Shown here: positions 146-16,005 of the stretch, piece after piece
How the letters are laid out: each line of letters opens with the position of its first letter
Position numbering within the stretch: the first letter of the stretch is position 1
From: Pseudomaricurvus alkylphenolicus
Lineage (GTDB): Bacteria; Pseudomonadota; Gammaproteobacteria; Pseudomonadales; Cellvibrionaceae
Assembly (NCBI RefSeq): GCF_011683955.1
Contig: NZ_JAAQPI010000009.1
Span: 186,001-250,000 of the forward strand
Length of the DNA stretch: 64,000 nt
Direction of reading: 5' to 3'
The notes under the pieces: generated by a model
Seen by the model: only the letters and a program-made list of their open reading frames with translations
Databases searched by the model: none
Told to the model about the DNA's origin: nothing
Translations under genes and position numbers: made by a program

Positions 146-1189
146 ATGAAACTTAACCATTTGGCACAACGCAAACTGGTGCCTTTGTTACTGACGCTGG
201 GCGTCCTGGGGGGCTGCGAAGCTCCTCTGGATTTGTCCGGCATTGAGCAACAACAAAATCAGGCCACACGCCGTTTTGATCAGTTCAAGTCTGCAGCTCA
301 TACCGATGATCGTATTGTGGTTGTTGGAGATCACGGCGTGGTGCTGACCTCCCGCGACCAGGGTGAGAGCTGGAGTCGCTTGGAACTCAGCGGTTATCCC
401 GCTTTAGTGGACGTGACCGCCTGCCCGGACGGAAGCGTGGTGGCTCTGGACCGCTCGCGCAAGGTTTGGGTTTCCGACACCAATGACTCAGGTAATGAGT
501 ACTGGGCCTCCCGCGGCATTACCACCGAAGAGGAGCCGTTGGCCATTGACTGCGACCCCGAGGGCCATCTCTGGGTAACTGCCAGTTTCAGTACCATTCT
601 CCACAGTAATGACAAGGGGTTGGGCTGGGCGTCGCAGTCACTGGATGAAGATATGCAGCTGGGCACCATCCAGTTTCTGGACCGTGACAGCGCGGTTATT
701 ACCGGGGAATTCGGTGCACTGCTGAAAAGTATCGATGGCGGACGCACCTGGCAGCGGCACGCGGATTTGCCCGATGAGTTCTTTCCGCTTGCGGCTCACT
801 TTGCGGATACCGACACCGGCTGGGTATCCGGCTTGGGTGGCACGGTGTTACACACCCGAGACGGGGGACAAAGCTGGGAAAAACAATCCACTGCCAGCGT
901 TTCTCCCCTGTATGGATTGATCAGCAATGGCCCCGAACTCTATGCCGCCGGTGATAGCGGTACGCTTTTGCAATACGACGGAGCCAGTTGGAATCCCGTT
1001 GCCCACAATACCGGCGTTCGTTCCTATTTTATTGCCATGGCAGCCTTAAACAGGGATCAGTTACTGGTGGCCGGCGGTGCAGGCCTGGTGAGCGTGATTG
1101 ATGTCACTCAGGACACTACCAAGCCCCATGCCAATCACAACGTGTTGGCAGAGAAATTGAACGAACGCACTGAGGGAGCCACCCTATGA
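146..1189 (+). CDS. YCF48/BNR-repeat lipoprotein, partner of an RND exporter
   Basis: A 347-residue protein with a type II signal peptide: a hydrophobic stretch ending in LGGC, with the lipidated Cys near residue 24. At least four Asp-box/BNR-like repeats follow (SRDQGESW, SNDKGLGW, SIDGGRTW, TRDGGQSW), the pattern of YCF48-type beta-propellers. The start is supported by a GGAGGGGAG ribosome site. Its TGA overlaps the ATG of the RND gene (ATGA), so the two are translationally coupled. YCF48-like lipoproteins are recurrently found next to DUF1302, DUF1329 and MmpL-type RND genes, which suggests an envelope accessory role in moving a hydrophobic compound. Substrate unknown. Confidence 0.75.
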   Translation: MKLNHLAQRKLVPLLLTLGVLGGCEAPLDLSGIEQQQNQATRRFDQFKSAAHTDDRIVVVGDHGVVLTSRDQGESWSRLELSGYPALVDVTACPDGSVVALDRSRKVWVSDTNDSGNEYWASRGITTEEEPLAIDCDPEGHLWVTASFSTILHSNDKGLGWASQSLDEDMQLGTIQFLDRDSAVITGEFGALLKSIDGGRTWQRHADLPDEFFPLAAHFADTDTGWVSGLGGTVLHTRDGGQSWEKQSTASVSPLYGLISNGPELYAAGDSGTLLQYDGASWNPVAHNTGVRSYFIAMAALNRDQLLVAGGAGLVSVIDVTQDTTKPHANHNVLAEKLNERTEGATL

Positions 1190-3588
1190 AACGCCTGCAT
1201 CAATTTACTCACTTTCTGCGTAATCTGGATAATTACGTTTTTCACTATCCAAAACTGTTTCTGGGGTTGATAGCACTGGCCACCGTTTTTTTTGCCATGC
1301 AGGTCCCCAAGGTGCAAATGTATTCGGATTTCGCCGATCTGCTGCCGCAGGAACACCCGTATATCAAACTGCATAACTCCATTCGTGATACCTTTGGCGG
1401 GGCCAATAATGTGGTCATGGCCGTTGAAGTGGAAGAGGGGGATATTTTTACCTCCGAGACGCTGGCCCGCATTCATCGTGTTACCCAGTCAGTGGATAAT
1501 CTTACTGGCGTTAACCACAACCTTTTATCCAGTCTGACTCACCGTACTTCTCGCAAGGTGTGGCTGACCGAAACCGGTGACGTAAACTCCGAACCTTACT
1601 ATGATCCGACACAGCTTGAACTGACGCCGGCTCAGCTGGCCGGACTGCGCAACGATGTGATGGCCAACCCCCGGGTGTATGGCCTGTTGGTATCCCCCGA
1701 TTTAAAGGCCGCATTGATCAAGGCGCAGTTTAACGAAGGGCAGTTGGACTACGAGAAGATCTTTACCGGCATTCAGGAGATTCGTGCGGCGGAATCGGTA
1801 CCGGGAACCAAAGTTTACGCCACAGGCCAACCCATGCTCTGGGGATGGGTGTACAGCTATCTCGATCAGATCTTTCTGATTTTCAGTACTACCGCGGCCA
1901 TTATGCTGGCACTGCTGGTAGTTTATTTTCGTCGCGCTTATGGCATTATCCTGCCGCTGTTTGGCATTACGATTTCCTGTATTTGGGGCGTGGGCATTGT
2001 TTCCCTGCTCGGCTATAACCTCGACCCCCTGACTCTGGTGATTCCTTTCCTGATTGCCGCACGGGCCATGTCTCACGGTATTCAGCTGGTTCAACGGTAT
2101 TACGATGAGTTCGATCTAGTGGGTGACGGGCGCGAAGCCGCTCAGCGAACCTTTGATTCGCTGTTTCGCCCGGGCACGCTGGGCATTGTCTCCGATGCAA
2201 TAGGACTGTTATTGATAGCACTGGGATCGGTACCCATTAACGTTAAGCTGGGTATCTACGCTTCGCTGTGGGCTGTCTGTGTGGTACTGACCGTTCTTGT
2301 CACTGTGCCTTTGCTGTTGTCTCTGCTGCCGGCTCCCAAGGTTGCCGAGAACCGGGCTCGACAAACCCGCGGTTGGATTCATTCGGTGGCACGTATTGTG
2401 TCAAGCCGGCGAGGCGGCTTAACCGTACTGGCGTTAGCCTTTGTGACTCTATTGGCAGGCGGTGCACTCAGTTCGCGGGTACAGATTGGCGAGTCTGAAC
2501 CCGGTTCTCCGATATTGTATCTGGACCATGACTACAATGTTTCCTCCAAGGTAATCAACGAACGCTTCCCCGGCTCTGAGGAGCTCTATATCGTCGCTCG
2601 CACGGAAAACGTTGGCGGCATGAAACGCCCCGAGGTGTTACGAGCTATTGCGGCTTTTCAACGCCATATGATGATGGACCCCGAGCTGGGTGGTACCAAG
2701 GCGTTGCCCGGTTTGGTGAAACAGGTTAACCGTATCTTTCACAGTGATGACCCCCGCTGGGCGGTCATTCCCGACACGGATTCCTACGTCGGTGGTCTGA
2801 TGTTTGCCTATATGGCCTCCAGTCCGATACCCGGCGCGCTAAAGGAATTTGTCGATACTGACGACCAGGTGGCCAACATCGTCTTTTTCTATAAAGATCA
2901 CCAGGCCAAAACCATTCGCCGAGCCATACACCAGGCCAAAGCCTGGATTGAAGATCCCGCCAATCATGTCGATGGACTCACCATCGAATTGGCGGGTGGC
3001 CTGGTCGGGGTAACGGCGGCCATGAATGAGTCCGCATTCGAAAGTAATATGACCATCATTCCCCTGGTGCTGGCGTTTATCTTTTTCGTAGTCACCTGGT
3101 TCTACTGGTCGTTTCACGCCGGTTGGTTAATGTTACTGGCCATGGCCTTCTGTACTACCTCCACCTACGCCTATATGGGGCTGGCCAATATTGGTATCAA
3201 CGTTAATACCGTGCCGATTATCGCCGTGGGTATTGGTGTGGGAATCGACTACTCCATTTACATGATGGACCGCATCCGCGAGGAGGTGGCTCGTTCTGAC
3301 GGCGACATGAGTCAGGCGCTGATTCGAGCGCTGTCGAGCACCGGCAAGGCGATCGCCTTTACGGCCACCTGTCTTATCGGCGGTGTGATTATGTGGGTCT
3401 TCCTTTCCGACCTGCGCTTCCAGGCGGACGCGGCGTTGTTGCTGGTGGTGATGTTGGTGTTGAATGCACTGGCGGCGGTGTTCCTGGTGCCAGCCTGGAT
3501 CGGTTTCTTTAAACCGGACTTTATTACCCGTGCGCGTTTTGATGAGGATGGTGTGCTGCAGACGGATCTGGAGGCTGCCACCGCTTGA
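1186..3588 (+). CDS. RND superfamily (MmpL-type) exporter
   Basis: An 800-residue inner-membrane protein with the duplicated RND layout: one membrane segment near residue 25, a large periplasmic loop, a block of membrane spans around 225-385, another single span near 410, a second loop, and a final block around 620-780. The second block includes the VGIGVGIDYSIYMMDRIRE region typical of MmpL/HpnN-like predicted exporters. At 800 residues it is far shorter than AcrB-type drug pumps. No membrane-fusion protein or TolC-like channel is adjacent; the coupled YCF48 lipoprotein and the DUF1302/DUF1329 proteins may take their place. Proton-driven export, or movement between membranes, of a lipid-like molecule is inferred. 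Confidence 0.8.
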   Translation: MKRLHQFTHFLRNLDNYVFHYPKLFLGLIALATVFFAMQVPKVQMYSDFADLLPQEHPYIKLHNSIRDTFGGANNVVMAVEVEEGDIFTSETLARIHRVTQSVDNLTGVNHNLLSSLTHRTSRKVWLTETGDVNSEPYYDPTQLELTPAQLAGLRNDVMANPRVYGLLVSPDLKAALIKAQFNEGQLDYEKIFTGIQEIRAAESVPGTKVYATGQPMLWGWVYSYLDQIFLIFSTTAAIMLALLVVYFRRAYGIILPLFGITISCIWGVGIVSLLGYNLDPLTLVIPFLIAARAMSHGIQLVQRYYDEFDLVGDGREAAQRTFDSLFRPGTLGIVSDAIGLLLIALGSVPINVKLGIYASLWAVCVVLTVLVTVPLLLSLLPAPKVAENRARQTRGWIHSVARIVSSRRGGLTVLALAFVTLLAGGALSSRVQIGESEPGSPILYLDHDYNVSSKVINERFPGSEELYIVARTENVGGMKRPEVLRAIAAFQRHMMMDPELGGTKALPGLVKQVNRIFHSDDPRWAVIPDTDSYVGGLMFAYMASSPIPGALKEFVDTDDQVANIVFFYKDHQAKTIRRAIHQAKAWIEDPANHVDGLTIELAGGLVGVTAAMNESAFESNMTIIPLVLAFIFFVVTWFYWSFHAGWLMLLAMAFCTTSTYAYMGLANIGINVNTVPIIAVGIGVGIDYSIYMMDRIREEVARSDGDMSQALIRALSSTGKAIAFTATCLIGGVIMWVFLSDLRFQADAALLLVVMLVLNALAAVFLVPAWIGFFKPDFITRARFDEDGVLQTDLEAATA

Positions 3589-3786: not shown

Positions 3787-3803
3787 TTGGCATGAGTGAT
3801 GCA
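3787..3803 (+). promoter_or_regulatory. sigma-54 (RpoN) -24/-12 promoter
   Basis: TTGGCATGAGTGATGCA matches the RpoN consensus with two mismatches. GG is at 3789-3790 and GC at 3801-3802. It overlaps an in-frame ATG at 3792, which therefore cannot be the translation start of the DUF1302 gene. The true start is 3849, after a strong ribosome site. Confidence 0.65.
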
Positions 3804-3848
3804 ACCCCTATCCCGCAGACAATAAGCAATAACATTGAGGAGAGGTTT

Positions 3849-5831
3849 ATGCGAAGCACCCTGATCCCCCAACGCTGGCTGACGGCGGTTCACGCCTGTT
3901 CCGTCAGCTGTCTATTGGCCACCACAGCACCACTGACCCAGGCCTACACTTCCGAGGACGGTACCCTGGAGGTTAACGGCTTTATCGAAAACGGAACCTA
4001 CCAGCGGGAAACAGTGGGTATCTCCAAATCCCGTTCTACCGCTCAACTGGAAATTTCCAAAGCCTTTGGCGATAAAGGCATCTTTAGCAATGTGTCGTTC
4101 AACGGTACCCTGCGGGCTACCTTTGATGCTGTCTACGATCTCAATGACGACGAATTTGGTGATAACGCCGGCGATGCGGTTCGTCTCGAAAACGCGTTGA
4201 TTGGTATCGAAACACCGTTCGGTTCCTCGCCGGTGAGTACGGGCTTTCTGATTCCGGGGACACCCATTCCCACCGGTTTCGGTTTTGATACCAGCGCTAA
4301 TCCCAATGAAGGACTCAAGCTGCTGGGGGGTGAATTGCGTGGCGCCAACGGTGGTGTCGGACTGGCGGTTCCCGTCAGGCCCTGCGATAAGGATTCAAGG
4401 GGCTGTATTGACGACTATCTGGACTTCGATAGTGATGAACTGCGGCATCCGGAGTTTAATGACCGTCTGGATTTTATCCGTGAGGCCTATGTAACCGCCG
4501 ACGTAAATTTCGATAGCGGTCGCCAGCTCAGTTTGAGCGTTGGCAAACAGCAGGTGATCTGGGGCCGAACGGATTTGTTTCGCGTGCTGGACGTGATTAA
4601 TCCGGTAGATTATTCCCGCCATAATATTTATGACGAGCTGGAGGATATCCGCATTCCCATGTGGATCGCCCATGCGGAGTATCGTCTCGGTTCAACAGAA
4701 ATGTTTGATGACCTCAATTTTTCTCTGGTCTGGAACTTCGATAAATTCCGGCCCAATAATCTGGGGCAGGGCGGTTCACCCTATGCCATTCTCGGTGCCG
4801 GTGATTTTTTCCGGGGCATGGCCAACTGTTGGGAAAATGGCTGTAGTGTCGCCAACTTTGCGGCGCACGGTGGTTTGGCCACAGACTTCCCCGCACACAC
4901 CATCGGTATACGCAAAGCAGAGATGCCCAGCTGGTCGCTCAGTAATACTCAGCTGGGGTTGAAGGTGGAAGGTGAGTACAAAGGCGTAGGCTTCTCACTT
5001 AATGCGCTGACCTATCGCAGCCATCTGCCCTCCCTGCGCGGTGGTGTGGAGGCTCGTAACCCCTTTATCGCTGACGGTGCATTGGACCCACTTGGCAGCG
5101 GTGAAATCGGTGGCGAGGAAAAGGTGCGAGATTATCTGATCGCCTTTGATATTCACTTCCCCCGTGTCAACCTGATCGGCGGTTCGCTGGATTTTTACGT
5201 CGATCCGCTCAAATCGGTGTTTCGTATCGAAACCGCCTATACCCAGGGCGAAGAGTTTGCCAATACCTTAAAACCCAAGCTCTACTCAGAATCGGATGTA
5301 TTGCGTTACGTGATCGGTTGGGATCGTCCTACCTTTATTCCTTTCCTCAATAAAAAACGCGCCTTCCTGTTGTCCGCCCAGGTGTTTGGCCAGCATCTGT
5401 TGGATCATGATTTGGTCAAGGTCAATGGTATCGAAGCCGGTATACCGGATTGGGAAGTCAATCACACGGCAACCTTCCTGTTCAAAGGCTGGTACAAGAA
5501 TGACCGTATTAGTCCCCAGGTGATTATTGCTCACGATATGCGTGCAGATGCCACCACCATTGCCCCCTCCGTTGAGTGGTTGATTGACGATAACTGGCAG
5601 TTGGTTGTCGGTGCCAATCTCAAATACGGCGGTGGCGATAAGCCCTTTGATGACTGTCGCGGCTGTAACCCCTTCCCGGGTTATACCGATAACCTGACCT
5701 TTCAGGATGCCGGCGCTTTGGGCCTGCGCGATCTGGCGGGAGTTGAGCCGCTGGGTCGCTTTCGTATGGGACCGCTGGGAATGGCCAGTGAAGAAGATGA
5801 ATTCCAGATCACCCTGCGTTACCGCTACTGA
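3849..5831 (+). CDS. DUF1302 family outer-membrane-type protein
   Basis: A 660-residue protein with an N-terminal signal peptide (hydrophobic segment about residues 13-28, cleavage likely after TQA). The body is rich in aromatic beta-strands and ends in the alternating ITLRYRY typical of outer-membrane beta-barrels. DUF1302 proteins are predicted outer-membrane proteins that occur with DUF1329. The start is at ATG 3849, preceded by AGGAGAGG. An upstream in-frame ATG (3792) lies inside the sigma-54 promoter and is excluded. The DUF1329 gene follows 18 bp downstream. A role in passage of a hydrophobic compound across the outer membrane is inferred. Confidence 0.8.
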   Translation: MRSTLIPQRWLTAVHACSVSCLLATTAPLTQAYTSEDGTLEVNGFIENGTYQRETVGISKSRSTAQLEISKAFGDKGIFSNVSFNGTLRATFDAVYDLNDDEFGDNAGDAVRLENALIGIETPFGSSPVSTGFLIPGTPIPTGFGFDTSANPNEGLKLLGGELRGANGGVGLAVPVRPCDKDSRGCIDDYLDFDSDELRHPEFNDRLDFIREAYVTADVNFDSGRQLSLSVGKQQVIWGRTDLFRVLDVINPVDYSRHNIYDELEDIRIPMWIAHAEYRLGSTEMFDDLNFSLVWNFDKFRPNNLGQGGSPYAILGAGDFFRGMANCWENGCSVANFAAHGGLATDFPAHTIGIRKAEMPSWSLSNTQLGLKVEGEYKGVGFSLNALTYRSHLPSLRGGVEARNPFIADGALDPLGSGEIGGEEKVRDYLIAFDIHFPRVNLIGGSLDFYVDPLKSVFRIETAYTQGEEFANTLKPKLYSESDVLRYVIGWDRPTFIPFLNKKRAFLLSAQVFGQHLLDHDLVKVNGIEAGIPDWEVNHTATFLFKGWYKNDRISPQVIIAHDMRADATTIAPSVEWLIDDNWQLVVGANLKYGGGDKPFDDCRGCNPFPGYTDNLTFQDAGALGLRDLAGVEPLGRFRMGPLGMASEEDEFQITLRYRY

Positions 5832-5849: not shown

Positions 5850-7184
5850 ATGAAACTGTTAAATAAGAAAATCGCATCGGTGGCAATGCTCGCCACAGTT
5901 ATGGCTGGTTCCAGCAGCTCGGCCCTGGCTACGGCGAACGCCACCATGGAAGACGTTGACGCGTCTTTTTATCCCTATCGTCAGTCCGTACCAACCTTTC
6001 CCGGATTGTCTGCAGGTGCTGTTATTAATCAGAGCAATGTCGATCTGTTTGCCGACGTGTTGGATCCCGCAGTATTCAATTTTGTGAAAGACGGTTGGAC
6101 CGAAATCAAAGTAGGGGAGACCACGTCATTTGATCTGCATCCCAACTATGTAGCAGCGACCCGAGTCAATCTTAACGAGGTGTCGCTGGGCGACCAGCCG
6201 GGCGAAATCCATAACTTTATCGCCGGGCGCCCGTTCCCAACCGAACCGGACATCAACGATCCCCGTGCCGGTGAAAAGGTTGCCTGGAACTTTAAGTATG
6301 GTTATAACTGGGGTGACAACGCCGCCATCTCGCCCTTCTACTGGAAGTACCGGGACATGAACTCGGGCAAAGTCGAGCGTAATATCAAATTCGACTTTCA
6401 CTTCCTGAACTTTATGCATCGGGTTAATCAAGAGCCGACTCCAGAGGTTCAACCCAACCCCTCGAAGCTGTTTCGGGCCATCTACGTAAAAGCCAACGAA
6501 CCGTTTGATGTGAAGAATACCCAGCTGTTGATTCACCGCAAGCAGGACGACCTGCAGCGAGACTCTTCCTGGCTCTATCTGGGTTTCCAGCGTCGCGTTC
6601 GCAAGCTGGCGTCGGGCCAGGTGACGGATGCGTTCCTGGGTTCCGACATCATGATTGAGGACTTTGAAGGTTACAACGGTCGGATTTCTGACATGAACTG
6701 GGCCTTTAAGGGGAGCAAGAACCTATTGTTGCCGTTCTACAATCACAACGAAATGGAACTGGCCGATGATCTGAAGGAAAGGGACGGTTATCAGTTTGTC
6801 GACTTCGAAGGTAAAGGTGGCTGCTTCCCTAAGATTACCTGGCAACTGCGCAAGGTCTATGAGCTGGAAGCCACACCGGTGGATAAGAATCACCCCATCA
6901 GCAAGCGGACTCACTTTGTGGACGCCCAGACCTACACCATTCCGCGCACAATCTCCTATGACCGTAAGGGCGATATGTGGAAGACCTTTACCATCGGTCA
7001 GGCGCATCCGGATCATCACCTGGAAAAAAACAAGGGCTCCGGCGTCTCCATTGATGACAGCTTCTCCATGGTGGATATTCAAGCGTCACACTGCACAACG
7101 GGGCAGTTCAAAGGACAACTTGACCCGGAGATGAATCCGCGTACCAAGTTCTCGGTACAGAACCTTCGCGCCTCAGGTCGATAA
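5850..7184 (+). CDS. DUF1329 family periplasmic/outer-membrane lipid-handling protein
   Basis: A 444-residue secreted protein; the signal peptide covers roughly residues 1-28 (hydrophobic core, then an ALA site). DUF1329 proteins are distantly related in fold to LolA/LolB-type lipoprotein carriers and are coded beside DUF1302 genes. Start ATG 5850 follows a GGAGGAG site; an in-frame TTG at 5835 overlaps that site and was rejected. It is in the same transcript as DUF1302 (18-bp gap). A terminator repeat follows at 7193. With the YCF48-RND pair it makes a four-protein set that I infer handles a hydrophobic substrate. Confidence 0.8.
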   Translation: MKLLNKKIASVAMLATVMAGSSSSALATANATMEDVDASFYPYRQSVPTFPGLSAGAVINQSNVDLFADVLDPAVFNFVKDGWTEIKVGETTSFDLHPNYVAATRVNLNEVSLGDQPGEIHNFIAGRPFPTEPDINDPRAGEKVAWNFKYGYNWGDNAAISPFYWKYRDMNSGKVERNIKFDFHFLNFMHRVNQEPTPEVQPNPSKLFRAIYVKANEPFDVKNTQLLIHRKQDDLQRDSSWLYLGFQRRVRKLASGQVTDAFLGSDIMIEDFEGYNGRISDMNWAFKGSKNLLLPFYNHNEMELADDLKERDGYQFVDFEGKGGCFPKITWQLRKVYELEATPVDKNHPISKRTHFVDAQTYTIPRTISYDRKGDMWKTFTIGQAHPDHHLEKNKGSGVSIDDSFSMVDIQASHCTTGQFKGQLDPEMNPRTKFSVQNLRASGR

Positions 7185-7246: not shown

Positions 7247-7846
7247 ATGCCAACACCCGTTGACGTAAAACTTTTTTTTAACTTCCGCAGCCCATACTGC
7301 TATCTTGCCAGTAAAACTCTGTTTCAAATTTTCGACGACTATCACGCGAATCTGCTCTGGCGCCCGGTGGGAGGATGGGACCTGCGTTCTCCACCGGATC
7401 GCGCCAAAGTCAAGGTGCCTCTAACCCGGCAGGACGTTGCCCGCTTTGCCCGCCGCATGGGTATCCCGCTGAATCCACCGCCCCTGGAAACCGAACCGAC
7501 GCTTGCCGGTGCAGGCTCGCTCTACGCTCAGCAGCAGGGTTTGCTGCGACCCTACCTGGTGGCGGTCATGGCGGCGGAGTGGTCTGAAGGTAAGAATATT
7601 GGTGAACGTGAACTCTTACTGCAGGTGGCAGAGTCCGTCGGATTGGATCGCGGCGAGTTCGCGGAAGCCATGGATAATCCGGACAATCTGCAACAACTGA
7701 AGACCCATGCCGAAGAAGCAATTCAATTGGGTGTGATTGGCGTGCCGACGTTTGTGATAGATGATCAGATCTTTTGGGGGCAGGATCGCATTGAGTTTGT
7801 GCTGGAACACCTTAACGAACTGCGTTTGAAACGAGACCGCTACTAA
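7247..7846 (+). CDS. 2-hydroxychromene-2-carboxylate isomerase / kappa-class GST (DsbA-like fold)
   Basis: A 199-residue cytoplasmic protein. FRSPYCY at residues 13-19 matches the active-site loop of HCCA isomerases and kappa GSTs, where a Ser binds the glutathione thiol. A cis-Pro segment GVPTFVID followed by a conserved WGQDRIEF completes the DsbA-like fold near residues 165-185. Family members isomerise aromatic degradation intermediates or use glutathione for detoxification. It is followed 17 bp later by a GST gene, so the two probably work together. A strong ribosome site (CCAGGAGA) supports the start. Substrate unknown. Confidence 0.8.
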   Translation: MPTPVDVKLFFNFRSPYCYLASKTLFQIFDDYHANLLWRPVGGWDLRSPPDRAKVKVPLTRQDVARFARRMGIPLNPPPLETEPTLAGAGSLYAQQQGLLRPYLVAVMAAEWSEGKNIGERELLLQVAESVGLDRGEFAEAMDNPDNLQQLKTHAEEAIQLGVIGVPTFVIDDQIFWGQDRIEFVLEHLNELRLKRDRY

Positions 7847-7863: not shown

Positions 7864-8547
7864 ATGATTAAACTCTACGATAAACCGGAGTGTCCGTTTT
7901 GTTGGCGCGTGCGCCTGGCGCTGCACGCCGTTGGTGTCGAGTACCAACGACTTGATTACCTGCAAGAACCTCAAAGCTGGCGGCGACTGACACCGGGAAG
8001 TACGGTCCCGGTCATGGAGGATCGCGGCATGGTTCTGTTTGAATCCAGTGTGATGCTTGAATATCTGCAGGACCAGTTCGGATCGTTGCTTCCTGTGTCG
8101 CCCGAGGAACGGGCCCGGGCCCGTTCGTTGATGTCCTATGCTGACAATGTATTGGGCCGGGCCGGGCGCGACGTCATTTTTGAAAAGAGAGATCGTGATC
8201 CGGCGCTATGGGACCATGATCGGCTGCGACGGGCCGAGGAAGCCTGGATTCAGGCCATGCCCTGGCTTGACGAGCAACATCAGCGCGAGACCAGCTTTTT
8301 CGGCGGCGAATATTCCCTCGCGGATATGGTGTTAGCGACGCGCTTTGGCTTGGCGCAAGCCTATGGTTTGTTGATTCCTGAAGAGTATGGCTATTTGAAG
8401 CGTTGGTTCGGTCGGATCTCTTCCCTGCCGGGCTTTCTTGTTACCGCCCCGCAGGTTGTTCTGGAAGCTCTGGCTGATTCCGCCTCCCTATCCGGGGTTG
8501 TGGCAGGGGATGTACAACCCTCTGAAGCCATTACCGTTAATTCTTGA
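7864..8547 (+). CDS. glutathione S-transferase with glutaredoxin-like CPFC motif
   Basis: A 227-residue two-domain GST: an N-terminal thioredoxin-like domain (residues 1-75) carrying C10-P-F-C13 and the glutathione-site signature VPVMED...ESSVMLEYL, then an all-helical domain with the N-capping region GEYSLADMVLATRF. The CPFC pair suggests omega-type or glutaredoxin-like thiol transfer rather than simple conjugation. The 3' end overlaps the tail of the convergent TetR gene by 11 bp. It lies in the sigma-54 unit that begins with DUF1302. Confidence 0.8.
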   Translation: MIKLYDKPECPFCWRVRLALHAVGVEYQRLDYLQEPQSWRRLTPGSTVPVMEDRGMVLFESSVMLEYLQDQFGSLLPVSPEERARARSLMSYADNVLGRAGRDVIFEKRDRDPALWDHDRLRRAEEAWIQAMPWLDEQHQRETSFFGGEYSLADMVLATRFGLAQAYGLLIPEEYGYLKRWFGRISSLPGFLVTAPQVVLEALADSASLSGVVAGDVQPSEAITVNS

Positions 8548-9196
8548 GTGAGTACATCGTCAAGAATACCTCCACCGTTTTGTCGGCGTGCCGATGTATC
8601 TGTGTTTGCGTCAGTTGTGACTTGGCGCCTACCATCATCGGCAGCATCAAATCCCACAGTAGTAATCCAAAAAATCGCACACCGGCAGCCTGAGCATCTT
8701 CATTGTCAACGGTTTTGTGATTGATATGTTTCTGCAAATAGCCACCGAGATCCCTCTGAGCCGAGAAGGGACCCAGCTGGTAGTATCCTTGTCCCAGCTC
8801 TGGAAATTGCCAGCTCTCCGCGACAATTGCTCTGACCACCGCGATGTGTTTTTTCGATAAAATCAAGGTCAAAGCACGACCTGCGTATCTTTGCAGAAGC
8901 GTCTGCAAATCCAGCTGCTGACGATCCAAATAAATCAGTTCCGAGGCCAGTTCCGCGCTGATATCTTCAGTTAATGCCTCCAATAACCCTTTCTTGCTGC
9001 CGAACATCTTGTAGATCGTTGACTTTGAACAGCTCGCCTGTTCAACCACCGCATCCAGGCTGGTGGCCGCATAGCCATAGCGGCCGAACTGATCGGCAGC
9101 CGCATCCAGTATCTGCCGTCGTTTGGCGGACTGATTAGTGGCGACCTTAAAAGACCGTGGAGTCTCTGTTTCATCAAGCTGTTTTTTCACTTGCAT
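8537..9196 (-). CDS. TetR/AcrR family repressor
   Basis: A 219-residue regulator. The helix-turn-helix lies at about residues 35-75 (GYAATSLDAVV...CSKSTIYKMFGSKKGLLEAL), the classic TetR pattern, and the helical ligand domain follows. Start ATG 9196 is chosen because GGAAG lies 8 bp upstream; an in-frame TTG at 9211 has no such site. It is transcribed away from the korA operon, so it may control that operon and itself through the shared 326-bp region, which contains an 18-bp inverted repeat at 9467-9484. Confidence 0.85.
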   Translation of the reverse strand: MQVKKQLDETETPRSFKVATNQSAKRRQILDAAADQFGRYGYAATSLDAVVEQASCSKSTIYKMFGSKKGLLEALTEDISAELASELIYLDRQQLDLQTLLQRYAGRALTLILSKKHIAVVRAIVAESWQFPELGQGYYQLGPFSAQRDLGGYLQKHINHKTVDNEDAQAAGVRFFGLLLWDLMLPMMVGAKSQLTQTQIHRHADKTVEVFLTMYSLKN

Positions 9197-9286
9197 TGCT
9201 TTGGCTTCCAAATTCCCGGATTTACAACATCACAGTGCAATCCCCATACCAGCGCTGAGATCACTTTAACCGGGTTACTCATCGAA

Positions 9287-9341
9287 TTGCTCAAATAGCT
9301 TCAGCTGCAAACTCAACCAAATCGTAAAAATGGTTGCTCAA
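9287..9341. promoter_or_regulatory. pair of TTGCTCAA sites upstream of korA
   Basis: TTGCTCAA occurs at 9287-9294 and 9334-9341, about 100-150 bp upstream of the third -24/-12 promoter. It differs by one base from the TTGATCAA octamers before the other two sigma-54 promoters. Possible activator sites. No perfect IHF consensus is seen here. The rest of the 9197-9522 gap holds only this, the promoter and an inverted repeat. Confidence 0.35.
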
Positions 9342-9435
9342 ATCAGAAATCAGCTCAGCTTATCAGCCGTGATGCCAGTTGAGGTTTTTATCCCAACCCC
9401 GGCTGCGCTGGGGCCCTAGCCGATTATCGGACTCT

Positions 9436-9452
9436 CTGGCACGGAAGCTGCT
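9436..9452 (+). promoter_or_regulatory. sigma-54 (RpoN) -24/-12 promoter of the korAB-fdx-rdhA operon
   Basis: CTGGCACGGAAGCTGCT matches YTGGCACGRNNNTTGCW at all but one defined position, the best of the three in this window. GG is at 9438-9439 and GC at 9450-9451. Transcription would begin near 9463, about 60 bp before the korA start. Confidence 0.75.
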
Positions 9453-9466
9453 CTATAAAAATAAAA

Positions 9467-9484
9467 GAGTACTCGTCAGTACTC
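9467..9484. promoter_or_regulatory. 18-bp inverted repeat at the start of the korA transcript
   Basis: GAGTACT-CGTC-AGTACTC is a perfect 7+7 inverted repeat lying just after the expected start of the sigma-54 transcript. The position suits a repressor roadblock; the divergent TetR (8537-9196) is the obvious candidate. A small RNA hairpin is the alternative. Confidence 0.5.
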
Positions 9485-9522
9485 AAATTATAGCGGATCC
9501 AGCTACCCAGAGGAGAGAACTA

Positions 9523-11406
9523 GTGTTGCAAGAACCCAAAGACAAGCACAGTCCGAACACCCATCTCAGTCAGGCGATCATCCGATTCGCCGGCGACTCC
9601 GGCGACGGTATTCAGGCCACCGGCGCCATGTTTTCACATAACTCCGCCGCGCTGGGACATGACATCAGTACCTTGCCGGACTACCCCGCGGAAATCCGCG
9701 CACCAGCTGGAACCATTGCCGGTGTGAGTAGTTTTCAATTGAACTTCAGTTCGCGCCGAATCCACACGCCCGGTGACAGACCCGACGTTCTGGTCGCCAT
9801 GAACCCGGCCGCGGTGAAAGCACATATCAGCAGCCTGCGTCCCGGCGGTACTCTGATTGTCAATGACGATGGTTTCGATGAGCAGGCGTTAAAACTGGCC
9901 GGCTATGACAAGGATCCTCGTGAAGACGGCACGCTGGACAGCTATCACGTCCACCGTGCTCCGGTTTCCACCATGACGGTGGAATCCGTAAAGGCTCTGC
10001 AATTGGCCCCGCAGCAGGCGGCACTTTGCAAGAATATGTACACATTGGGTTTGGTCTGCTGGTTGTTCGATAGGGATACCGATTTTATTGAAGCCCTGGT
10101 GGAGCAACGCTTTGCTCAAGAGTCGGAAGTATTGCGCGAAGCCAATTGCATGGCATTGCGGGCGGGTTATAACTTCGCGGAAACCACCGAGATGTTCAGC
10201 AGCCAGTGTCGGGTGGAAACCGCCGAACAATCGCCGGGACTCTATCGTCGACTATCCGGTAATACTGCCACGGCACTGGGGTTGGTGGCCGCTGCACAAT
10301 TGGCACAACGTCAATTGATGTACTGCACCTATCCCATCACGCCCGCCAGCGATATTCTCCATGAACTGGCCAAGTTGCGGCATATGGGCGTGATCGCCGG
10401 GCAAACGGAAGATGAAATCGCAGCCATGGGCGCGGCAGTGGGCGCGGCTTACGGCGGATCGCTGGCGGTTACCGGCACCAGTGGCCCCGGGGTTGCGCTA
10501 AAGTCGGAGGCCATAGGCCTTGCGGTAATGACGGAACTGCCGGTCGTGATTATCAATGTACAGCGCGGTGGCCCCTCTACCGGATTACCGACGAAGACCG
10601 AGCAATCGGATCTACTGCAGGCAATGTACGGCCGTAATGGCGAGTGCCCGGTGGTGGTACTGGCGCCCGACAGCCCCGCAGACTGCTTTACCATGGCCAT
10701 GGAAGCCTGTCGTCTGGCAATGAAATATATGACCCCCGTGTTTTTGCTTTCGGATGGTTATATTGCCAACGGCTCTGAACCCTGGCAGGTACCCAGAGTC
10801 GATCAATTGCCGCAATTCAGGACCAATGAACCTGTCTGTTCAGAGACGCAATCACAATTTCTGCCTTATTCCCGCAACCCTGAAACCCTGGCGCGTCCCT
10901 GGGTGGTTCCCGGAACCCCCGGTACAGAACATCGTATCGGCGGTCTGGAAAAACAGGACGGCACGGGACATGTGTCCCAGGACCCGCTCAATCACGAACA
11001 AATGGTTCAGTTGCGGGAGCAGAAGATTGCAGGTATCGCCGAGGATATTCCCGAACTCGACGTCTTTGGATCATCGGCGGGGCGATTACTGGTGTTGGGT
11101 TGGGGCGGTACCGGCGGTGCCATCCGCGCAGCCGTAGAAGAAGCCCAGGCAAAAGGGCTCGACGTTGCCTGTGCGCAGCTGCGCTACCTGAATCCGTTCC
11201 CCAAGAACCTGGCGGCCGTGTTAGACGCGTTCGATCAGGTTCTGATTCCGGAACTCAATCGCGGTCAACTGAGGCAACTGGTTCGCGCCCAATACCTGGT
11301 TGATGCACAGGGCTTAAACAAAGTTCAGGGTCAACCCTTCCATACCTCGGAAATCCTGGAAAAGATCGAGAATTTGTGTCAGCAGCCGTCGGAAGCTGTC
11401 GCCTGA
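9523..11406 (+). CDS. korA: 2-oxoacid:ferredoxin oxidoreductase, fused gamma-alpha subunit
   Basis: A 627-residue protein. Residues about 15-200 form the gamma (CoA-binding/transfer) domain with GDSGDGIQ near the N-terminus. Residues about 240-600 form the alpha pyrimidine-binding domain with YPITPAS, GTSGPG and QRGGPSTGLPTK, hallmarks of KorA. It oxidises a 2-oxoacid (2-oxoglutarate or a related acid) with CoA and passes low-potential electrons to ferredoxin. Start GTG 9523 is chosen for the AGGAGAG site at 9511-9517; the longer in-frame ATG at 9379 lies upstream of the promoter and cannot be used. First gene of a tight four-gene operon. Whether the substrate is 2-oxoglutarate, pyruvate or an aromatic or branched 2-oxoacid cannot be told. 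Confidence 0.88.
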   Translation: MLQEPKDKHSPNTHLSQAIIRFAGDSGDGIQATGAMFSHNSAALGHDISTLPDYPAEIRAPAGTIAGVSSFQLNFSSRRIHTPGDRPDVLVAMNPAAVKAHISSLRPGGTLIVNDDGFDEQALKLAGYDKDPREDGTLDSYHVHRAPVSTMTVESVKALQLAPQQAALCKNMYTLGLVCWLFDRDTDFIEALVEQRFAQESEVLREANCMALRAGYNFAETTEMFSSQCRVETAEQSPGLYRRLSGNTATALGLVAAAQLAQRQLMYCTYPITPASDILHELAKLRHMGVIAGQTEDEIAAMGAAVGAAYGGSLAVTGTSGPGVALKSEAIGLAVMTELPVVIINVQRGGPSTGLPTKTEQSDLLQAMYGRNGECPVVVLAPDSPADCFTMAMEACRLAMKYMTPVFLLSDGYIANGSEPWQVPRVDQLPQFRTNEPVCSETQSQFLPYSRNPETLARPWVVPGTPGTEHRIGGLEKQDGTGHVSQDPLNHEQMVQLREQKIAGIAEDIPELDVFGSSAGRLLVLGWGGTGGAIRAAVEEAQAKGLDVACAQLRYLNPFPKNLAAVLDAFDQVLIPELNRGQLRQLVRAQYLVDAQGLNKVQGQPFHTSEILEKIENLCQQPSEAVA

Positions 11407-11427
11407 CAGCATTGAAGGAAAATCATA

Positions 11428-12471
11428 ATGAATCAGACAGAGCCTCTTAACATCCCCACCTATCAAAAGGAAGACTTTGCCAGTGACCAGACGCCACGCT
11501 GGTGCCCTGGATGTGGTGACTATTCCATTCTGGCACAGCTGCAACGGGTGATGCCCGCCATTGCCGAGCAAACACAAACACCGCGAGAAAACATGGTGTT
11601 TATCTCCGGTATCGGCTGCTCCAGCCGTTTTCCCTATTACATGAATACCTATGGTTTTCACAGTATCCACGGCCGCGCCCCGACATTGGCATTGGGGCTG
11701 CAGGTATCACGCCCGGAATTAATGACCTGGGTCGTTACCGGCGATGGCGATGCGTTGAGTATCGGCGGTAATCACTTGATGCATTGCTTGCGTCGTAACC
11801 TGAATGTGAAAATTCTATTGTTTAACAATCGCATTTATGGTTTGACTAAGGGGCAGTACTCGCCCACGTCGGAGCTTGGAAAGCGGACGAAATCAAGCCC
11901 CTTGGGTTCCGTTGCGCGGCCTTTAAACCCGCTGTCCATTGCCCTGGCTTCCCAGGCTACCTTTGTTGCCCGAGCCGTTGACCGTGATCCCAAGTTGTTG
12001 CAGGACGTCATTACGCAGGCAGCCTTGCACAAAGGCTCCGCCATTGTCGAAATCTACCAGAACTGCAATATCTTTAACGATGGCGCTTTTGCTCATGTCT
12101 CTGAGCGCAAGAGTCGCGACGACAATACTCTGAAGTTGCAGCATGGTGAGCCTCTGGTATTTGGCAGGCAGCGTGACAAAGCCGTGGTTCTGAACGAACA
12201 GCTTCAACCCAGAGTGGTTGCCACCTCCGAAATTTCGGAGTCCGACTTACTGATTCACGACACCAGCCGGGATAACTCTGGGCTGACCTACGCGTTATCA
12301 CAGTTGCAGTACCCGGAGTTTCCGGTACCGGTGGGTATCTTCCGAGCGCTGAAGGCGCCCACCTACGAGGAACGCGTACACCAACAAGTCAATGAGGCTA
12401 AACGCCAGAAACCCGCGACAGCTCTGCAGCAGCTGCTCGATAGCGGTGAAACCTGGCGCGTCGCTGAATAA
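11428..12471 (+). CDS. korB: 2-oxoacid:ferredoxin oxidoreductase, beta subunit
   Basis: A 347-residue thiamine-diphosphate and Fe-S subunit. CPGCG near residue 24, SGIGCS and IYQNC supply the cluster cysteines; GDGDALSIGGNH and NNRIYGLTKGQ form the ThDP/Mg pocket. This is the two-subunit KorAB type, which lacks the separate ferredoxin-domain delta subunit and so needs an external ferredoxin; one is encoded next. It begins 21 bp after korA with a GAAGGAAAA site. KorAB enzymes of this type include oxygen-tolerant members in aerobes (known for the family), which would fit an aerobic host. Confidence 0.88.
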   Translation: MNQTEPLNIPTYQKEDFASDQTPRWCPGCGDYSILAQLQRVMPAIAEQTQTPRENMVFISGIGCSSRFPYYMNTYGFHSIHGRAPTLALGLQVSRPELMTWVVTGDGDALSIGGNHLMHCLRRNLNVKILLFNNRIYGLTKGQYSPTSELGKRTKSSPLGSVARPLNPLSIALASQATFVARAVDRDPKLLQDVITQAALHKGSAIVEIYQNCNIFNDGAFAHVSERKSRDDNTLKLQHGEPLVFGRQRDKAVVLNEQLQPRVVATSEISESDLLIHDTSRDNSGLTYALSQLQYPEFPVPVGIFRALKAPTYEERVHQQVNEAKRQKPATALQQLLDSGETWRVAE

Positions 12472-12505
12472 CACCCAACAAGAAAACCCGAGAGAGGTAA
12501 TAGTT

Positions 12506-12829
12506 ATGGCTTATGTGGTCACTGAAGGATGCATCAACTGTAAACAAATGGACTGCGTCGAAGTTTGCCCCGTCGATTGTTTTCGCGAGGGGCCCAATAT
12601 GTTGGTTATTGATCCCAACGAGTGTGTGGATTGCACACTGTGTGTACCCGCGTGTCCGGAGAAGGCCATTTTTCGCGATGGTGACGTACCCGTGGAACAG
12701 CATCAATTTGTCGCTCTGAATGAAGAAATGGCGGAGGTTTGGGAACTGATCGACGAGAAAGGAGACGTACCGGCGGACGCCTCAGATTGGAGTGGACGCG
12801 TGGGCAAGTTTGAATTTCTTCAGCGTTAA
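12506..12829 (+). CDS. fdxA: 7Fe ferredoxin ([3Fe-4S][4Fe-4S], FdxA type)
   Basis: A 107-residue ferredoxin closely resembling Azotobacter ferredoxin I along its whole length. All ligands are present, with Met as residue 1: C9, C17 and C50 for the 3Fe cluster; C21, C40, C43 and C46 for the 4Fe cluster; C12 and C25 are the extra cysteines also seen in that protein. Start ATG 12506 follows AGAGAGG. It is sandwiched between korB and the reductive-dehalogenase-like gene (gaps of 34 and 15 bp), so it is the probable electron carrier between them. A housekeeping FdxA elsewhere in the genome cannot be excluded. Confidence 0.9.
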   Translation: MAYVVTEGCINCKQMDCVEVCPVDCFREGPNMLVIDPNECVDCTLCVPACPEKAIFRDGDVPVEQHQFVALNEEMAEVWELIDEKGDVPADASDWSGRVGKFEFLQR

Positions 12830-12844
12830 GCGGCGGAGATCGAT

Positions 12845-15121
12845 ATGAAACTGTTTTCACACAAGCATCGCCCGGCCCATTTGGGGCCGTACCCTCTGGA
12901 ACGGTTGAGCAGAACCAGCGTGAAACCGGAATACCGGCGTCAACAGCCACCCGGCGCATTGGAGTTTGTCAATCGTGCAAACCCGCAAAGCCTGAGCAAT
13001 GCCATGTTGGAATACGTCAACCTGATGGACCGTCTGCGTGACGGCGAGGTTGCTGTCAACAAAGCCCCGATTCCCGATGATCCCGTCGAACGTGCCAATC
13101 ACCTCAAGGCGGCGGCTTATTTTCTGGATGCCAGTCAGGCGGCCACCTGCGCCTTGCCCAGGGAGGCCATTCTCGCCAAGCCGATCAGAAATGCCTCTCT
13201 AGATGATGAGGTGGAAAAAAACTATTCGGTGGGTGCATCGCAAAACGCCATGTCCACCTCTACAGTGGAAGAGGGCGCTTCGGCATGGCAGCGCACCGAA
13301 TCAACCGAGAGTATCGAGCACCACAGTCACGCATTGGCGCTGTTGATTGAATATCCCCGCGAGCCGGATATTACAGAACCCGGTGGTGAGTGGCTGGTGG
13401 GCACCCAGGCGCAGCGGGCCGCCGTGCGGGCCGCCGAAGTGGCAGCGGTATTGTCCCAGTACTTGCGGTTTCTGGGTTTTGAAGCCCGCGCTCATACAGC
13501 GACAGCGTCAGATGTGGACCACGATCAGATTCTTCTGGCCTGTGGGCTGGCGGAGGTTGATCAGCATCGTTTGGCGAATCCTTTTCTGGGAGACCGCTAC
13601 GGCGTCGCCGTCATTACCACAAGCCTGCAACTGGACGACGATCAGCCCCTGGCCGCCAGAAACCTGGTAGAACAGTGGCGGGCCAAAGGGCCGAGCTGGT
13701 GGCTGGGGCAGGGGGGGACTGCGGCGGCCTGGCAAGGTCCGGCGTACAACAGGCGGGCCTACCACCAAGGCCGCTATCCTATGGAGAAGGTCAAACGGCA
13801 GTCTCGCCCCAGCACCTTTATCGATGATGAAAAGGTGCCCCGGGTTCCCAAAAGAGGGGATATGTTTGTGCGCGCGGCGCTGGGTGACCTGGGCAAAAAA
13901 GCCGAAAAGGAGCTGCAGCAGTTTCGAATGATAACCAAGTCGCCCTTTGGCCACGCCATGATGCCCGTGCTTGGTGGCATGGTTCCCATGCAATATGGCA
14001 AGGAGGCGGAGCAGGTGGTACCCGGCACCGACGATCCGGTGAAGAATGCGGCCAGCGTCAAAGCCGCCTTGCATTATCTCGGCGCAGATATGGCCGGCAT
14101 CTGCGAGATTCCCGACTACGCCTGGTATTCCCACGATCACGACGGTTCTGAGATCGAACCCTATCACAAGTACGCCGTTTCCATTCTGGTGGATCAGGGT
14201 TATGAAACCATGGAAGGGGCCAGCGGAGACGACTGGATTTCGGGCGCTCAGAGTATGCGTGCCTACATGCGTGCCGCACTGGTTGGTGGAATCGTCTGTT
14301 CACATATTCGCAGCCTGGGTTATTCGGCGCGCACTCATAGTGTTATTGATCAGGACGTATTGCATGTGCCATTAATCCTACTGGCAGGTATGGGTGAACT
14401 GAGTCGCATCGGCGAGGTAGTGCTCAACCCATTTGTGGGGCCAAGATTCAAGTCCGGCATCCTCACTACCAATATGCCGCTGGCGGTGGACCAGCCTATG
14501 GATTTTGGTCTGCAGGATTTTTGCAATCAGTGTAAGAAATGCGCCCGCGAATGCCCCTGCACGGCTATTCCCTTCGGCGATAAAATCATGTTTAACGGCT
14601 ATGAAATCTGGAAACCCGATTCGGAAAAATGCGCCCGCTACCGCATCACCAATTCCGGGGGCTCCATGTGTGGTCGCTGTATGAAAACCTGCCCCTGGAA
14701 CGTAGAAGGTGTGTTGGCAGAGCGCCCCTTTGTCTGGGCTGCGATGAAACTGCCATTTACCCGCAAGTGGTTGGCGGAATTTGACGATAAAGTCGGCAAC
14801 GGCAAACGCAATACGGTCAAGAAGTGGTGGTGGGATCTGGATACTGACAACGACGGCAATATCCTGATCGCCAAGCGTGCCAATGAACGTGAGTTGTCCT
14901 TTCGTCCTCCACTGACGCCGGAACAGCAGACCTTAGGCTGTTATCCTGCGCAAGACTTGCCGACGCCCGGGTTAAACGAACCGTCCCCTGTGGACCGGAA
15001 GCAGGGCAAGCAACGGTATGAACAGGCGTTATCGCCAGCGCTGTATCAGGCACTGAAAAACGAAGGGAGCAATACAGATGAAGAAGCGGTGGCGGTAATG
15101 GAGCCCGTTAAAGTCGAGTGA
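12845..15121 (+). CDS. rdhA: reductive-dehalogenase-like cobalamin/Fe-S protein (cytoplasmic, catabolic type)
   Basis: A 758-residue protein. Residues 85-270 and 400-555 are two copies of the nitroreductase-like B12-binding fold; both share LGxxARxH, a D..H..LLA core, NPFxGxR and a TT...L..DQP ending. The first is probably the vestigial copy known in NpRdhA-type enzymes. Two [4Fe-4S] motifs follow: C560-C563-C566-C570-P and C596...C609-C612-C616-P. There is no twin-arginine signal and no small membrane-anchor (RdhB) gene, unlike respiratory enzymes, so it should be cytoplasmic. About 140 residues follow the clusters without the flavin/ferredoxin reductase extension of BhbA-like proteins; korAB-fdxA would supply electrons instead. 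The start has a GGAG site. The halogenated substrate is not shown. A B12 epoxyqueuosine-reductase role is unlikely, given the length and the duplication. Confidence 0.8.
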   Translation: MKLFSHKHRPAHLGPYPLERLSRTSVKPEYRRQQPPGALEFVNRANPQSLSNAMLEYVNLMDRLRDGEVAVNKAPIPDDPVERANHLKAAAYFLDASQAATCALPREAILAKPIRNASLDDEVEKNYSVGASQNAMSTSTVEEGASAWQRTESTESIEHHSHALALLIEYPREPDITEPGGEWLVGTQAQRAAVRAAEVAAVLSQYLRFLGFEARAHTATASDVDHDQILLACGLAEVDQHRLANPFLGDRYGVAVITTSLQLDDDQPLAARNLVEQWRAKGPSWWLGQGGTAAAWQGPAYNRRAYHQGRYPMEKVKRQSRPSTFIDDEKVPRVPKRGDMFVRAALGDLGKKAEKELQQFRMITKSPFGHAMMPVLGGMVPMQYGKEAEQVVPGTDDPVKNAASVKAALHYLGADMAGICEIPDYAWYSHDHDGSEIEPYHKYAVSILVDQGYETMEGASGDDWISGAQSMRAYMRAALVGGIVCSHIRSLGYSARTHSVIDQDVLHVPLILLAGMGELSRIGEVVLNPFVGPRFKSGILTTNMPLAVDQPMDFGLQDFCNQCKKCARECPCTAIPFGDKIMFNGYEIWKPDSEKCARYRITNSGGSMCGRCMKTCPWNVEGVLAERPFVWAAMKLPFTRKWLAEFDDKVGNGKRNTVKKWWWDLDTDNDGNILIAKRANERELSFRPPLTPEQQTLGCYPAQDLPTPGLNEPSPVDRKQGKQRYEQALSPALYQALKNEGSNTDEEAVAVMEPVKVE

Positions 15122-15170
15122 ATCCAGTTGTAACTCAGGTTGTAACGACAGTCGTTCCAACTGCACTTTA

Positions 15171-15200
15171 GGCCGCGCTCCTCCGACGCGGCCTCTTTTT
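15171..15200 (+). terminator. Rho-independent terminator of the korAB-fdxA-rdhA operon
   Basis: GGCCGCG (15171-15177) pairs with CGCGGCC and is followed by TCTTTTT. It lies 50 bp after the rdhA stop and just before the tail of the convergent GST gene. Confidence 0.85.
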
Positions 15201-15207
15201 CAAAGGC

Positions 15208-16005
15208 CTACAACAATTCTGAAATATGAGACTCGATCACGGCCCAACCGGGTTTTCCAACGGCCAGCAGTTGCTCACAAACATCCTGAGGAAAATCATC
15301 TGCCACTGCCGATTGATAGGATTGACGGTCACGACAGCGATTAAACCAGTCGGTCACTCTCGGGCAATCGCGGGTATAGATTTCGGTCCAACCGAATTGC
15401 AGCAACGTCTGAAAGTACGGTGCCAGACAAACATCCGCCAGACTGAAAGAATCGCCCACCATCCACTCATGTTGTTCCAATGCCTTTTCCATATCCACGA
15501 TGGTGTTGCGATAGATGCGGGCGGCATCTGCGACGTCCGGCGCTTCCAGTCCATACTTCATCAATCGGATTTGCCGCTCACGGCGGGGTTTTTCAGGCAC
15601 TTTCGCCAGAATTGCCAAGCGTTCTTGCTCAGGTTTCTCCATCAGTTTGGGACGCATCACCAGAGGCCACTGCAGGGCACCACAGGAGGGGTGAAGCTTG
15701 TTGTCCACGTGCTTCATCCAAAAACGCATTTTTGCCCGCGCATAGGTATCTGCGGGCTTGAGGGAAGACTCGGGGTAGGTATCATCCAGGTATTCACAAA
15801 TGATGCTGGACTCGATCACGGGTTGTCCATCATGGACCAGGGTGGGGACGACCCCCAGTGGGTTGAGCTTCAGATATTCCGGTCTCAGGTTCTCCTTGTC
15901 CGGCAGGCTGACGTGGTGTTTGGTCCAATCCAGGCCCTTTTCGGCCAAAACAATGCGCACCTTCTGCGCGCAGGGGGACATGGGATGGGTGTAGAGCTCT
16001 AACAT
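15208..16005 (-). CDS. glutathione S-transferase family protein (SPC active-site motif)
   Basis: A 265-residue GST. The N-terminal thioredoxin-like domain has THPMSPCAQKVR with S10 and C12 at the catalytic position, and VVPTLVHDGQPVIESSIICEYL as the glutathione site. The helical domain carries GDSFSLADVCLAPYF. GSTs with a Ser/Cys active site include maleylacetoacetate isomerases, dehalogenases and thiol transferases. It is transcribed towards the rdhA terminator and diverges from the LysR gene at 16136 with 130 bp between them, so that LysR is its likely regulator. Dehalogenation of a quinone-like product of the adjacent operon is possible but unproven. Confidence 0.8.
   Translation of the reverse strand: MLELYTHPMSPCAQKVRIVLAEKGLDWTKHHVSLPDKENLRPEYLKLNPLGVVPTLVHDGQPVIESSIICEYLDDTYPESSLKPADTYARAKMRFWMKHVDNKLHPSCGALQWPLVMRPKLMEKPEQERLAILAKVPEKPRRERQIRLMKYGLEAPDVADAARIYRNTIVDMEKALEQHEWMVGDSFSLADVCLAPYFQTLLQFGWTEIYTRDCPRVTDWFNRCRDRQSYQSAVADDFPQDVCEQLLAVGKPGWAVIESHISELL

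Follow-up and report, generated by a model that had tools for sequence, protein, structure and literature searches.

The window analysed here is a stretch of 64,000 nucleotides (contig positions 186001-250000) from the 8.88 Mb genome of Pseudomaricurvus alkylphenolicus. It includes four genes in tandem, korA, korB, fdxA and rdhA, which encode, respectively, the two subunits of a predicted 2-oxoacid:ferredoxin oxidoreductase (OFOR), a predicted 7Fe ferredoxin and a predicted catabolic reductive dehalogenase. This arrangement bears on the source of electrons for the dehalogenase, which is the subject of the present analysis.

Gene arrangement and control elements

The gaps between the four genes are exactly 21, 34 and 15 bp, and each gene is preceded by a purine-rich ribosome-binding site recognised by eye. 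The likely start of korA is GTG 9523, located after the sequence AGAGGAG, because the listed TTG start at position 9379 lies upstream of the promoter (Table 1). The bare sigma-54 pattern is weak evidence when taken alone, with a single match in the window vs 0.32 expected, or five vs 3.1 if one mismatch is allowed. An extended core, TGGCACN5YTGCTCT, was searched for in 226 kb of the P. alkylphenolicus genome and in 223 loci. The genomic sequence contains two copies vs 0.025 expected from 40 first-order Markov copies, a somewhat generous figure given that the core was lengthened after the sites had been seen. The second copy is located upstream of a phenol-hydroxylase operon on the same contig (locus L221), and the four matches among the 223 loci correspond to three independent sites, namely, those of korA, of this phenol-hydroxylase operon, and of the phenol-hydroxylase operon in locus L010, which also carries an rdhA gene. 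The sigma-54 promoter of korA is a well-supported prediction. The terminator region (15121-15215, 95 nt) folds with a z-score of -4.4 relative to shuffled sequences; the hairpin is missing from the output of a terminator pattern scan, probably owing to its 9-nt loop, as the scan allows no more than 8 nt. These features bear out the initial annotation in its description of four tightly packed genes between one -24/-12 promoter and one strong terminator, and the four genes would constitute a single sigma-54-dependent transcription unit.

Table 1. Features of the operon and of the adjoining part of the window (positions in the window)
Feature	Position	Strand	Evidence
korA, fused gamma/alpha subunit of 2-oxoacid:ferredoxin oxidoreductase (predicted), 627 aa	9523-11406	+	TIGR03710; YPITP 270-274, QRGGPST 347-353
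korB, thiamine pyrophosphate (TPP)/[4Fe-4S] beta subunit (predicted), 347 aa	11428-12471	+	PF02775; aligned to beta subunits 5b46_B, 6n2n_B; Cys 26, 29, 64, 213
fdxA, 7Fe ferredoxin (predicted), 107 aa	12506-12829	+	NF045490; full-length match to 7Fe ferredoxin I structures; 9 Cys
rdhA, catabolic reductive dehalogenase of the cytoplasmic type, lacking a reductase domain (predicted), 758 aa	12845-15121	+	TIGR02486; NpRdhA 4ras match
Predicted -24/-12 sigma-54 promoter TGGCACGGAAGCTGC, followed by TCT	9437-9451	+	Pattern and shared extended core
Two copies of TTGCTCAAAT, 47 bp apart, candidate activator-binding sites	9287-9296, 9334-9343	+	Repeat search; short two-copy repeat, may be chance
Predicted Rho-independent terminator (hairpin 15170-15194, T-run 15196-15200)	15170-15200	+	Read by eye; fold
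TetR/AefR-like regulator, divergent from korA	8537-9211	-	Pfam PF14246, PF00440
Glutathione S-transferase (GST), convergent with rdhA	15208-16005	-	Pfam; 69% identity to the GST just upstream of rdhA in L009
YCF48-like	146-1189	+	Pfam
MMPL exporter	1186-3588	+	Pfam
DUF1302	3792-5831	+	Pfam
DUF1329	5850-7184	+	Pfam
DsbA-like	7247-7846	+	Pfam
GST	7864-8547	+	Pfam

The genome encodes two regulators with the XylR_N domain, both on the contig of the window, about 53 kb upstream and about 58 kb downstream of the operon. One of these belongs to L221 (contig positions 132000-151000), which comprises a phenol-hydroxylase/meta-cleavage operon and a DmpR/XylR-type activator, and is adjacent to phenol-hydroxylase, ferredoxin-reductase and catechol-dioxygenase domains (the genes were assigned partly with Pfam and otherwise by eye). 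The second XylR-type regulator is located to the right of the window (L222, contig positions 250001-269000), together with an extradiol-dioxygenase-like gene and a TGGCACN5TTGC site of its own. A DmpR/XylR-type sensor that responds to phenolic compounds and is encoded elsewhere on the contig probably activates the operon. An activator site common to the regions upstream of korA and of the phenol-hydroxylase genes was considered and rejected, the TTGCTCAA-type half-sites being present only upstream of korA. Sigma-70 promoters between positions 8400 and 16200 (four found vs 5.2 expected) were rejected as well, and no RNA family reaches its gathering score in the window.

The proteins of the operon and their relatives

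KorA matches the profile TIGR03710 with 664 bits (cut-off 483) and FdxA matches NF045490 with 144.5 bits (cut-off 135); KorB scores well above the cut-off of PF02775 and reaches 238 bits with the subfamily profile TIGR02177, below its cut-off of 262. KorA contains the YPITP motif at position 270 and the carboxylate-binding Arg348 and lacks CxxC motifs, and the four cysteines of KorB line up with those of the Sulfolobus OFOR (StOFOR). No internal ferredoxin domain is detectable in KorA or KorB, so that the pair is assigned to the two-subunit OFORs. Available excerpts of PMC5020499 describe such enzymes from aerobes and report a Km of 2-3 uM for the reduction of the cognate 7Fe ferredoxin by the Sulfolobus OFOR. 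The Sulfolobus tokodaii enzyme thus resembles KorAB/FdxA in its two subunits, the lack of an internal ferredoxin domain, the 7Fe ferredoxin and the aerobic host; unlike the operon, it has a role in central metabolism and no associated dehalogenase, and its match to KorA is distant (166-171 bits over 627 aa). At the pocket positions taken from the same excerpts, KorB/KorA have Arg in place of StOFOR Lys49b, Glu near Asp468a, and Leu at Leu123b, and 6n2n has the same Arg and Glu; a choice between 2-oxoglutarate and pyruvate as the substrate based on these residues was set aside.

FdxA displays the nine-cysteine pattern of ferredoxin I (Cys 9, 12, 17, 21, 25, 40, 43, 46 and 50). The genome encodes a second full-length copy (55% identity, beside a MutS-like gene recognised by eye) and a third match of 82 residues (40%). 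Because a second full-length copy exists, the FdxA of the operon looks dedicated. Among 144 genomes of the family, KorA is found at E <= 1e-60 in that of P. alkylphenolicus only, so korAB was probably gained; at E 1e-100, it is present in 17 of 369 genomes of the class, this one included, the best match being 65% identical.

RdhA matches the RDH family profile TIGR02486 with 205 bits (cut-off 160) and the structure of NpRdhA, 4ras, with an E-value of 1.4e-191. The alignment to 4ras falls into two stretches, RdhA 1-105 and 159-736, and the HxGxYPxE motif is repeated near positions 12 and 307 (by eye), a pattern that points to the duplicated B12 (cobalamin)-binding domain already suggested for this protein in the initial annotation. 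All six active-site residues of NpRdhA (F291, S422, M423, Y426, K488 and R552) are conserved in the alignment, as F341, S470, M471, Y474, K536 and R600, and both [4Fe-4S] motifs are present, at positions 560 and 596. The absence of three further elements that the same annotation had reported likewise stands: the N-terminus (MKLFSHKHRP) contains no twin-arginine translocation (Tat) motif, with RR only at positions 31 and 303; the gene adjoining rdhA is the convergent GST gene (Pfam) rather than rdhB; and the 758-aa protein ends without the C-terminal PDOR-like reductase domain, which places it outside the self-sufficient BhbA/JtRdhA subclass. The sequence of RdhA is that of a cytoplasmic reductive dehalogenase of the NpRdhA/BhbA type that lacks a fused NAD(P)H reductase. 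The AlphaFold model (24 sequences) has a mean pLDDT of 79.5 and a pTM of 0.88, with eight short segments of pLDDT <50, among them 123-132, 454-463 and 583-588. Residues 109-151 of RdhA form a 43-residue insertion that is absent from NpRdhA and is shared by the fused enzymes (about 41 residues), in which, according to available excerpts of PMC10463259, it has been suggested to contact the reductase domain. In the unfused window group, where the insertion is kept, its function may be a different one, for example the docking of a ferredoxin.

Relatives of RdhA were examined as the best 80 of 586 confirmed GTDB matches. Among these, 74 are open frames of 1061-1189 aa, two are cut by contig ends (L038 and L075), and four (L008-L011), which are 62-63% identical to the RdhA of the window, are unfused. 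A tree of 56 full-length rows (37 of the 84 full-length fused proteins, 14 chosen NpRdhA-like proteins and the five of the window group; truncated and single-domain rows excluded, midpoint root only) joins RdhA and L008-L011 in one group (support 91/82) that is sister to the 37 fused rows (100/100). The 14 NpRdhA-like rows split off at 100/100, with NpRdhA itself on a long branch, so that RdhA lies outside the NpRdhA clade; RdhA and NpRdhA are 46-48% identical. There is no need to assume that a fused ancestor lost its reductase domain, the window group lying beside, not inside, the fused clade under the midpoint root. RdhA thus resembles BhbA/JtRdhA as a member of the sister clade with the same active-site residues and the 109-151 insertion, and differs from these self-sufficient enzymes by the missing reductase. 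We know of no characterised member of the window group. RdhA is rare among the closer relatives of P. alkylphenolicus: at E 1e-60, one genome out of 6 in the genus and four out of 144 in the family encode it, and at E 1e-80 it is found in 5 of 390 genomes drawn from the order, compared with 31 of 385 genomes drawn from the class of Nitratireductor pacificus. In the latter class, two loci (L173 and L177) contain same-strand tandem pairs of single-domain RdhA relatives of about 440-450 aa, possibly a two-gene form of the duplicated enzyme.

The source of electrons for RdhA

We propose, with a probability of about 0.64, that the main electron route to RdhA leads from KorAB via FdxA within one sigma-54 unit. 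KorAB would oxidise a 2-oxoacid (2-oxoglutarate or pyruvate) with CoA and pass the electrons to FdxA, which would reduce the [4Fe-4S] clusters of RdhA and thereby bring the corrinoid to Co(I). RdhA would then take the ortho halogen off a halophenol, as suggested by the conserved residues and the characterised relatives; according to available excerpts of PMC10463259, the catabolic reductive dehalogenases characterised so far act specifically on ortho-halophenols. The product would enter the phenol-hydroxylase/meta-cleavage pathway, yielding pyruvate that could refuel KorAB. The more complete scheme, in which phenolic inducers switch on an RdhA that is fed, via a dedicated FdxA, by oxidation of the pyruvate or 2-oxoglutarate arising from ring cleavage of its own product, is tentative, with odds somewhat short of even.

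The closest working analogy is the chain of Thauera aromatica, in which electrons flow from KorAB via a ferredoxin to benzoyl-CoA reductase (available excerpts of PMC2984482 and PMC9973337). As in the route proposed here, low-potential electrons come from a 2-oxoacid:ferredoxin oxidoreductase (in Thauera, one for 2-oxoglutarate) and reach a demanding aromatic reductase by way of a ferredoxin, and the genes are clustered in related strains; unlike in the operon, the acceptor is an ATP-dependent benzoyl-CoA reductase that operates under anoxia, and the ferredoxin is of the 2[4Fe-4S] type. The second system to be compared is the NpRdhA cluster of N. pacificus pht-3B (PMC10463259, in excerpts; read here as L113), which consists of rdhA, a flavin ferredoxin reductase (of the FNR/TrxR type by eye), a [2Fe-2S] ferredoxin and, after rdhA, an FdxA-type ferredoxin that is 51% identical to FdxA of the window. 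In both systems, RdhA is cytoplasmic and unfused and has identical active-site residues, and a gene for an FdxA-type 7Fe ferredoxin is present; they differ in that electrons enter the NpRdhA cluster via the flavin ferredoxin reductase, with an extra [2Fe-2S] ferredoxin, without KorAB and with an RdhA of a separate clade. No NAD(P)H:ferredoxin reductase domain is found by Pfam among 20 window proteins from 146 to 30544. Hence the predicted FdxA-type ferredoxin is common to both unfused systems and the predicted entry enzyme differs. Ferredoxins as suppliers of an unfused RdhA are already known, and the new part is the 2-oxoacid entry point.

The comparison with other genomes weighs against the proposed route. 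The neighbourhoods of the 80 best RdhA matches were searched with phmmer at 1e-10 for KorA, KorB and FdxA (flanks of at most 10 kb, many of them ended by contig ends), and none of the 80 contains any of the three. KorAB is also missing near RdhA in all 38 loci of unfused or short RdhA (one of which, L179, is in a 1259-aa frame), with FdxA or a reductase found in L113 only. Conversely, neither FdxA nor RdhA is close to KorA in the 11 KorA loci scanned, which comprise 7 of the 16 class matches outside the own genome (one of only 3.3 kb) and L119, L120, L207 and L208; about 38 further plasmid records bear KorA, and two of these were viewed. In the genomes of L008 and L009, KorA of about 50% identity is encoded on other contigs only, that of L010 is only 30-35% identical, and the genome of L011 contains none at E 1e-20. 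Because KorA is thus on other contigs, distant or absent in the sister genomes, RdhA proteins of the window group must be able to use other donors. Ferredoxin motifs were also looked for up to 6 kb away from the RdhA frames of 36 loci (38 frames in all; both flanks nearly complete in 25). The scan detects the ferredoxins of L113, two doubtful matches (L114 and L164) and, in L010, a reductase and a ferredoxin of the plant type; it finds no motif in L008, L009 and L011. The two L010 genes lie directly upstream of rdhA (L010:8078-9487), encode a reductase of the phenol-hydroxylase type and a [2Fe-2S] ferredoxin of the plant type, and possibly represent an alternative, NADH-linked donor; for this reason, we give slightly lower weight to the KorAB route and higher weight to the first alternative below. 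Furthermore, available excerpts of PMC10463259 report that the proteins encoded in the NpRdhA cluster failed to drive NpRdhA in vitro, non-cognate spinach and E. coli partners being used instead, so that the gene neighbourhood is an imperfect guide.

The assertions of the initial annotation on electron supply fare unevenly under this comparison. The flow from a 2-oxoacid via ferredoxin to RdhA remains plausible, given that an OFOR can reduce a 7Fe ferredoxin (PMC5020499, in excerpts), whereas conservation of the korA-korB-fdxA-rdhA order, which had been put forward as its check, is observed in none of the other loci examined. The statement that the donor of NpRdhA-type enzymes is often unclear does not fit the NpRdhA cluster, with its ferredoxin reductase and two ferredoxins, and the term "self-contained" was too strong for an operon whose regulator, corrinoid supply and 2-oxoacid source lie outside it. 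The remark that no system with exactly this layout has been described agrees with our searches: the combination of the four genes is unique in the loci and genomes searched, and neither those genomes nor the open-licence literature searched yielded a KorAB-linked catabolic reductive dehalogenase. The operon as a donor chain is still favoured by its tightly packed genes in a single sigma-54 unit and by the second FdxA copy.

The principal alternative, which we consider unlikely, is that KorAB and FdxA carry out a step of carbon metabolism, oxidising pyruvate or a different 2-oxoacid derived from ring cleavage, and share a promoter with rdhA since growth on phenolic substrates would require both; RdhA would obtain electrons, for example, from a ferredoxin-NADP reductase or from the reductase/ferredoxin of phenol hydroxylase. 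The unconserved gene order would be expected in this case; the RdhA proteins of L008, L009 and L011, with no ferredoxin motif nearby, probably have unlinked donors; and genes similar to the reductase and [2Fe-2S] ferredoxin beside rdhA in L010 are present in the phenol-hydroxylase operon of P. alkylphenolicus itself (L221). However, a second low-potential-type ferredoxin encoded between korB and rdhA would hardly be needed besides the other copy, and an FdxA-type gene accompanies NpRdhA too.

Electron supply to unfused oxygen-tolerant reductive dehalogenases is a practical problem, and the operon names a complete candidate donor chain in one likely transcription unit. If the KorAB route is correct, phenols could be dehalogenated by a low-potential system that does not depend on NADPH, and aerobic aromatic degraders could power demanding reductions by 2-oxoacid oxidation, as Thauera does for benzoyl-CoA. 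With refuelling from its own product, the operon would encode the first KorAB-driven catabolic reductive dehalogenase in the searches made and a third wiring of such enzymes, after the NADPH-fused and reductase-ferredoxin types.

The upstream cassette and the substrate

In L009 and L011, the YCF48, MMPL, DUF1302 and DUF1329 genes are arranged as in the window and lie ahead of rdhA, with GSTs or DsbA in between; L010 has YCF48 and MMPL on the opposite side of rdhA (tblastn). No match to these four genes is detected by tblastn in the other 77 of the 80 loci, L008 included. The window looks like a halo-aromatic cassette in which korA-korB-fdxA has been placed just before rdhA, and the envelope genes possibly encode a system that takes up or exports the halo-aromatic substrate. 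The surroundings of rdhA in related loci also include DmpR-type and phenol-hydroxylase genes (L010) and a DmpG-type aldolase (L011).

A second alternative retains KorAB/FdxA as the donor and assumes that this RdhA group acts not on halophenols but on an unusual aromatic compound handled by the MMPL/DUF1302/DUF1329 system, in which it would reduce a different C-X or C-O bond. It would account for the position of the window group apart from the NpRdhA and fused clades and for an envelope cassette and GSTs that have no known role here, but we regard it as improbable given the conservation of all six NpRdhA active-site residues, the ortho-halophenol specificity of the characterised enzymes (PMC10463259, in excerpts), and the phenol-catabolism promoter and genes. 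A chance juxtaposition after gene gain, with the operon non-functional or rarely expressed, would fit the lack of any relative of the layout in the searched genomes of the genus and family, but is very improbable in view of the intact frames, conserved active sites, tight spacing and specific promoter.

The genome of P. alkylphenolicus also encodes three fused RdhA paralogues (L002, L003 and L004), which are 47-49% identical to the RdhA of the window; one of these is located near PobA-like and LigB-like genes recognised by eye (L127).

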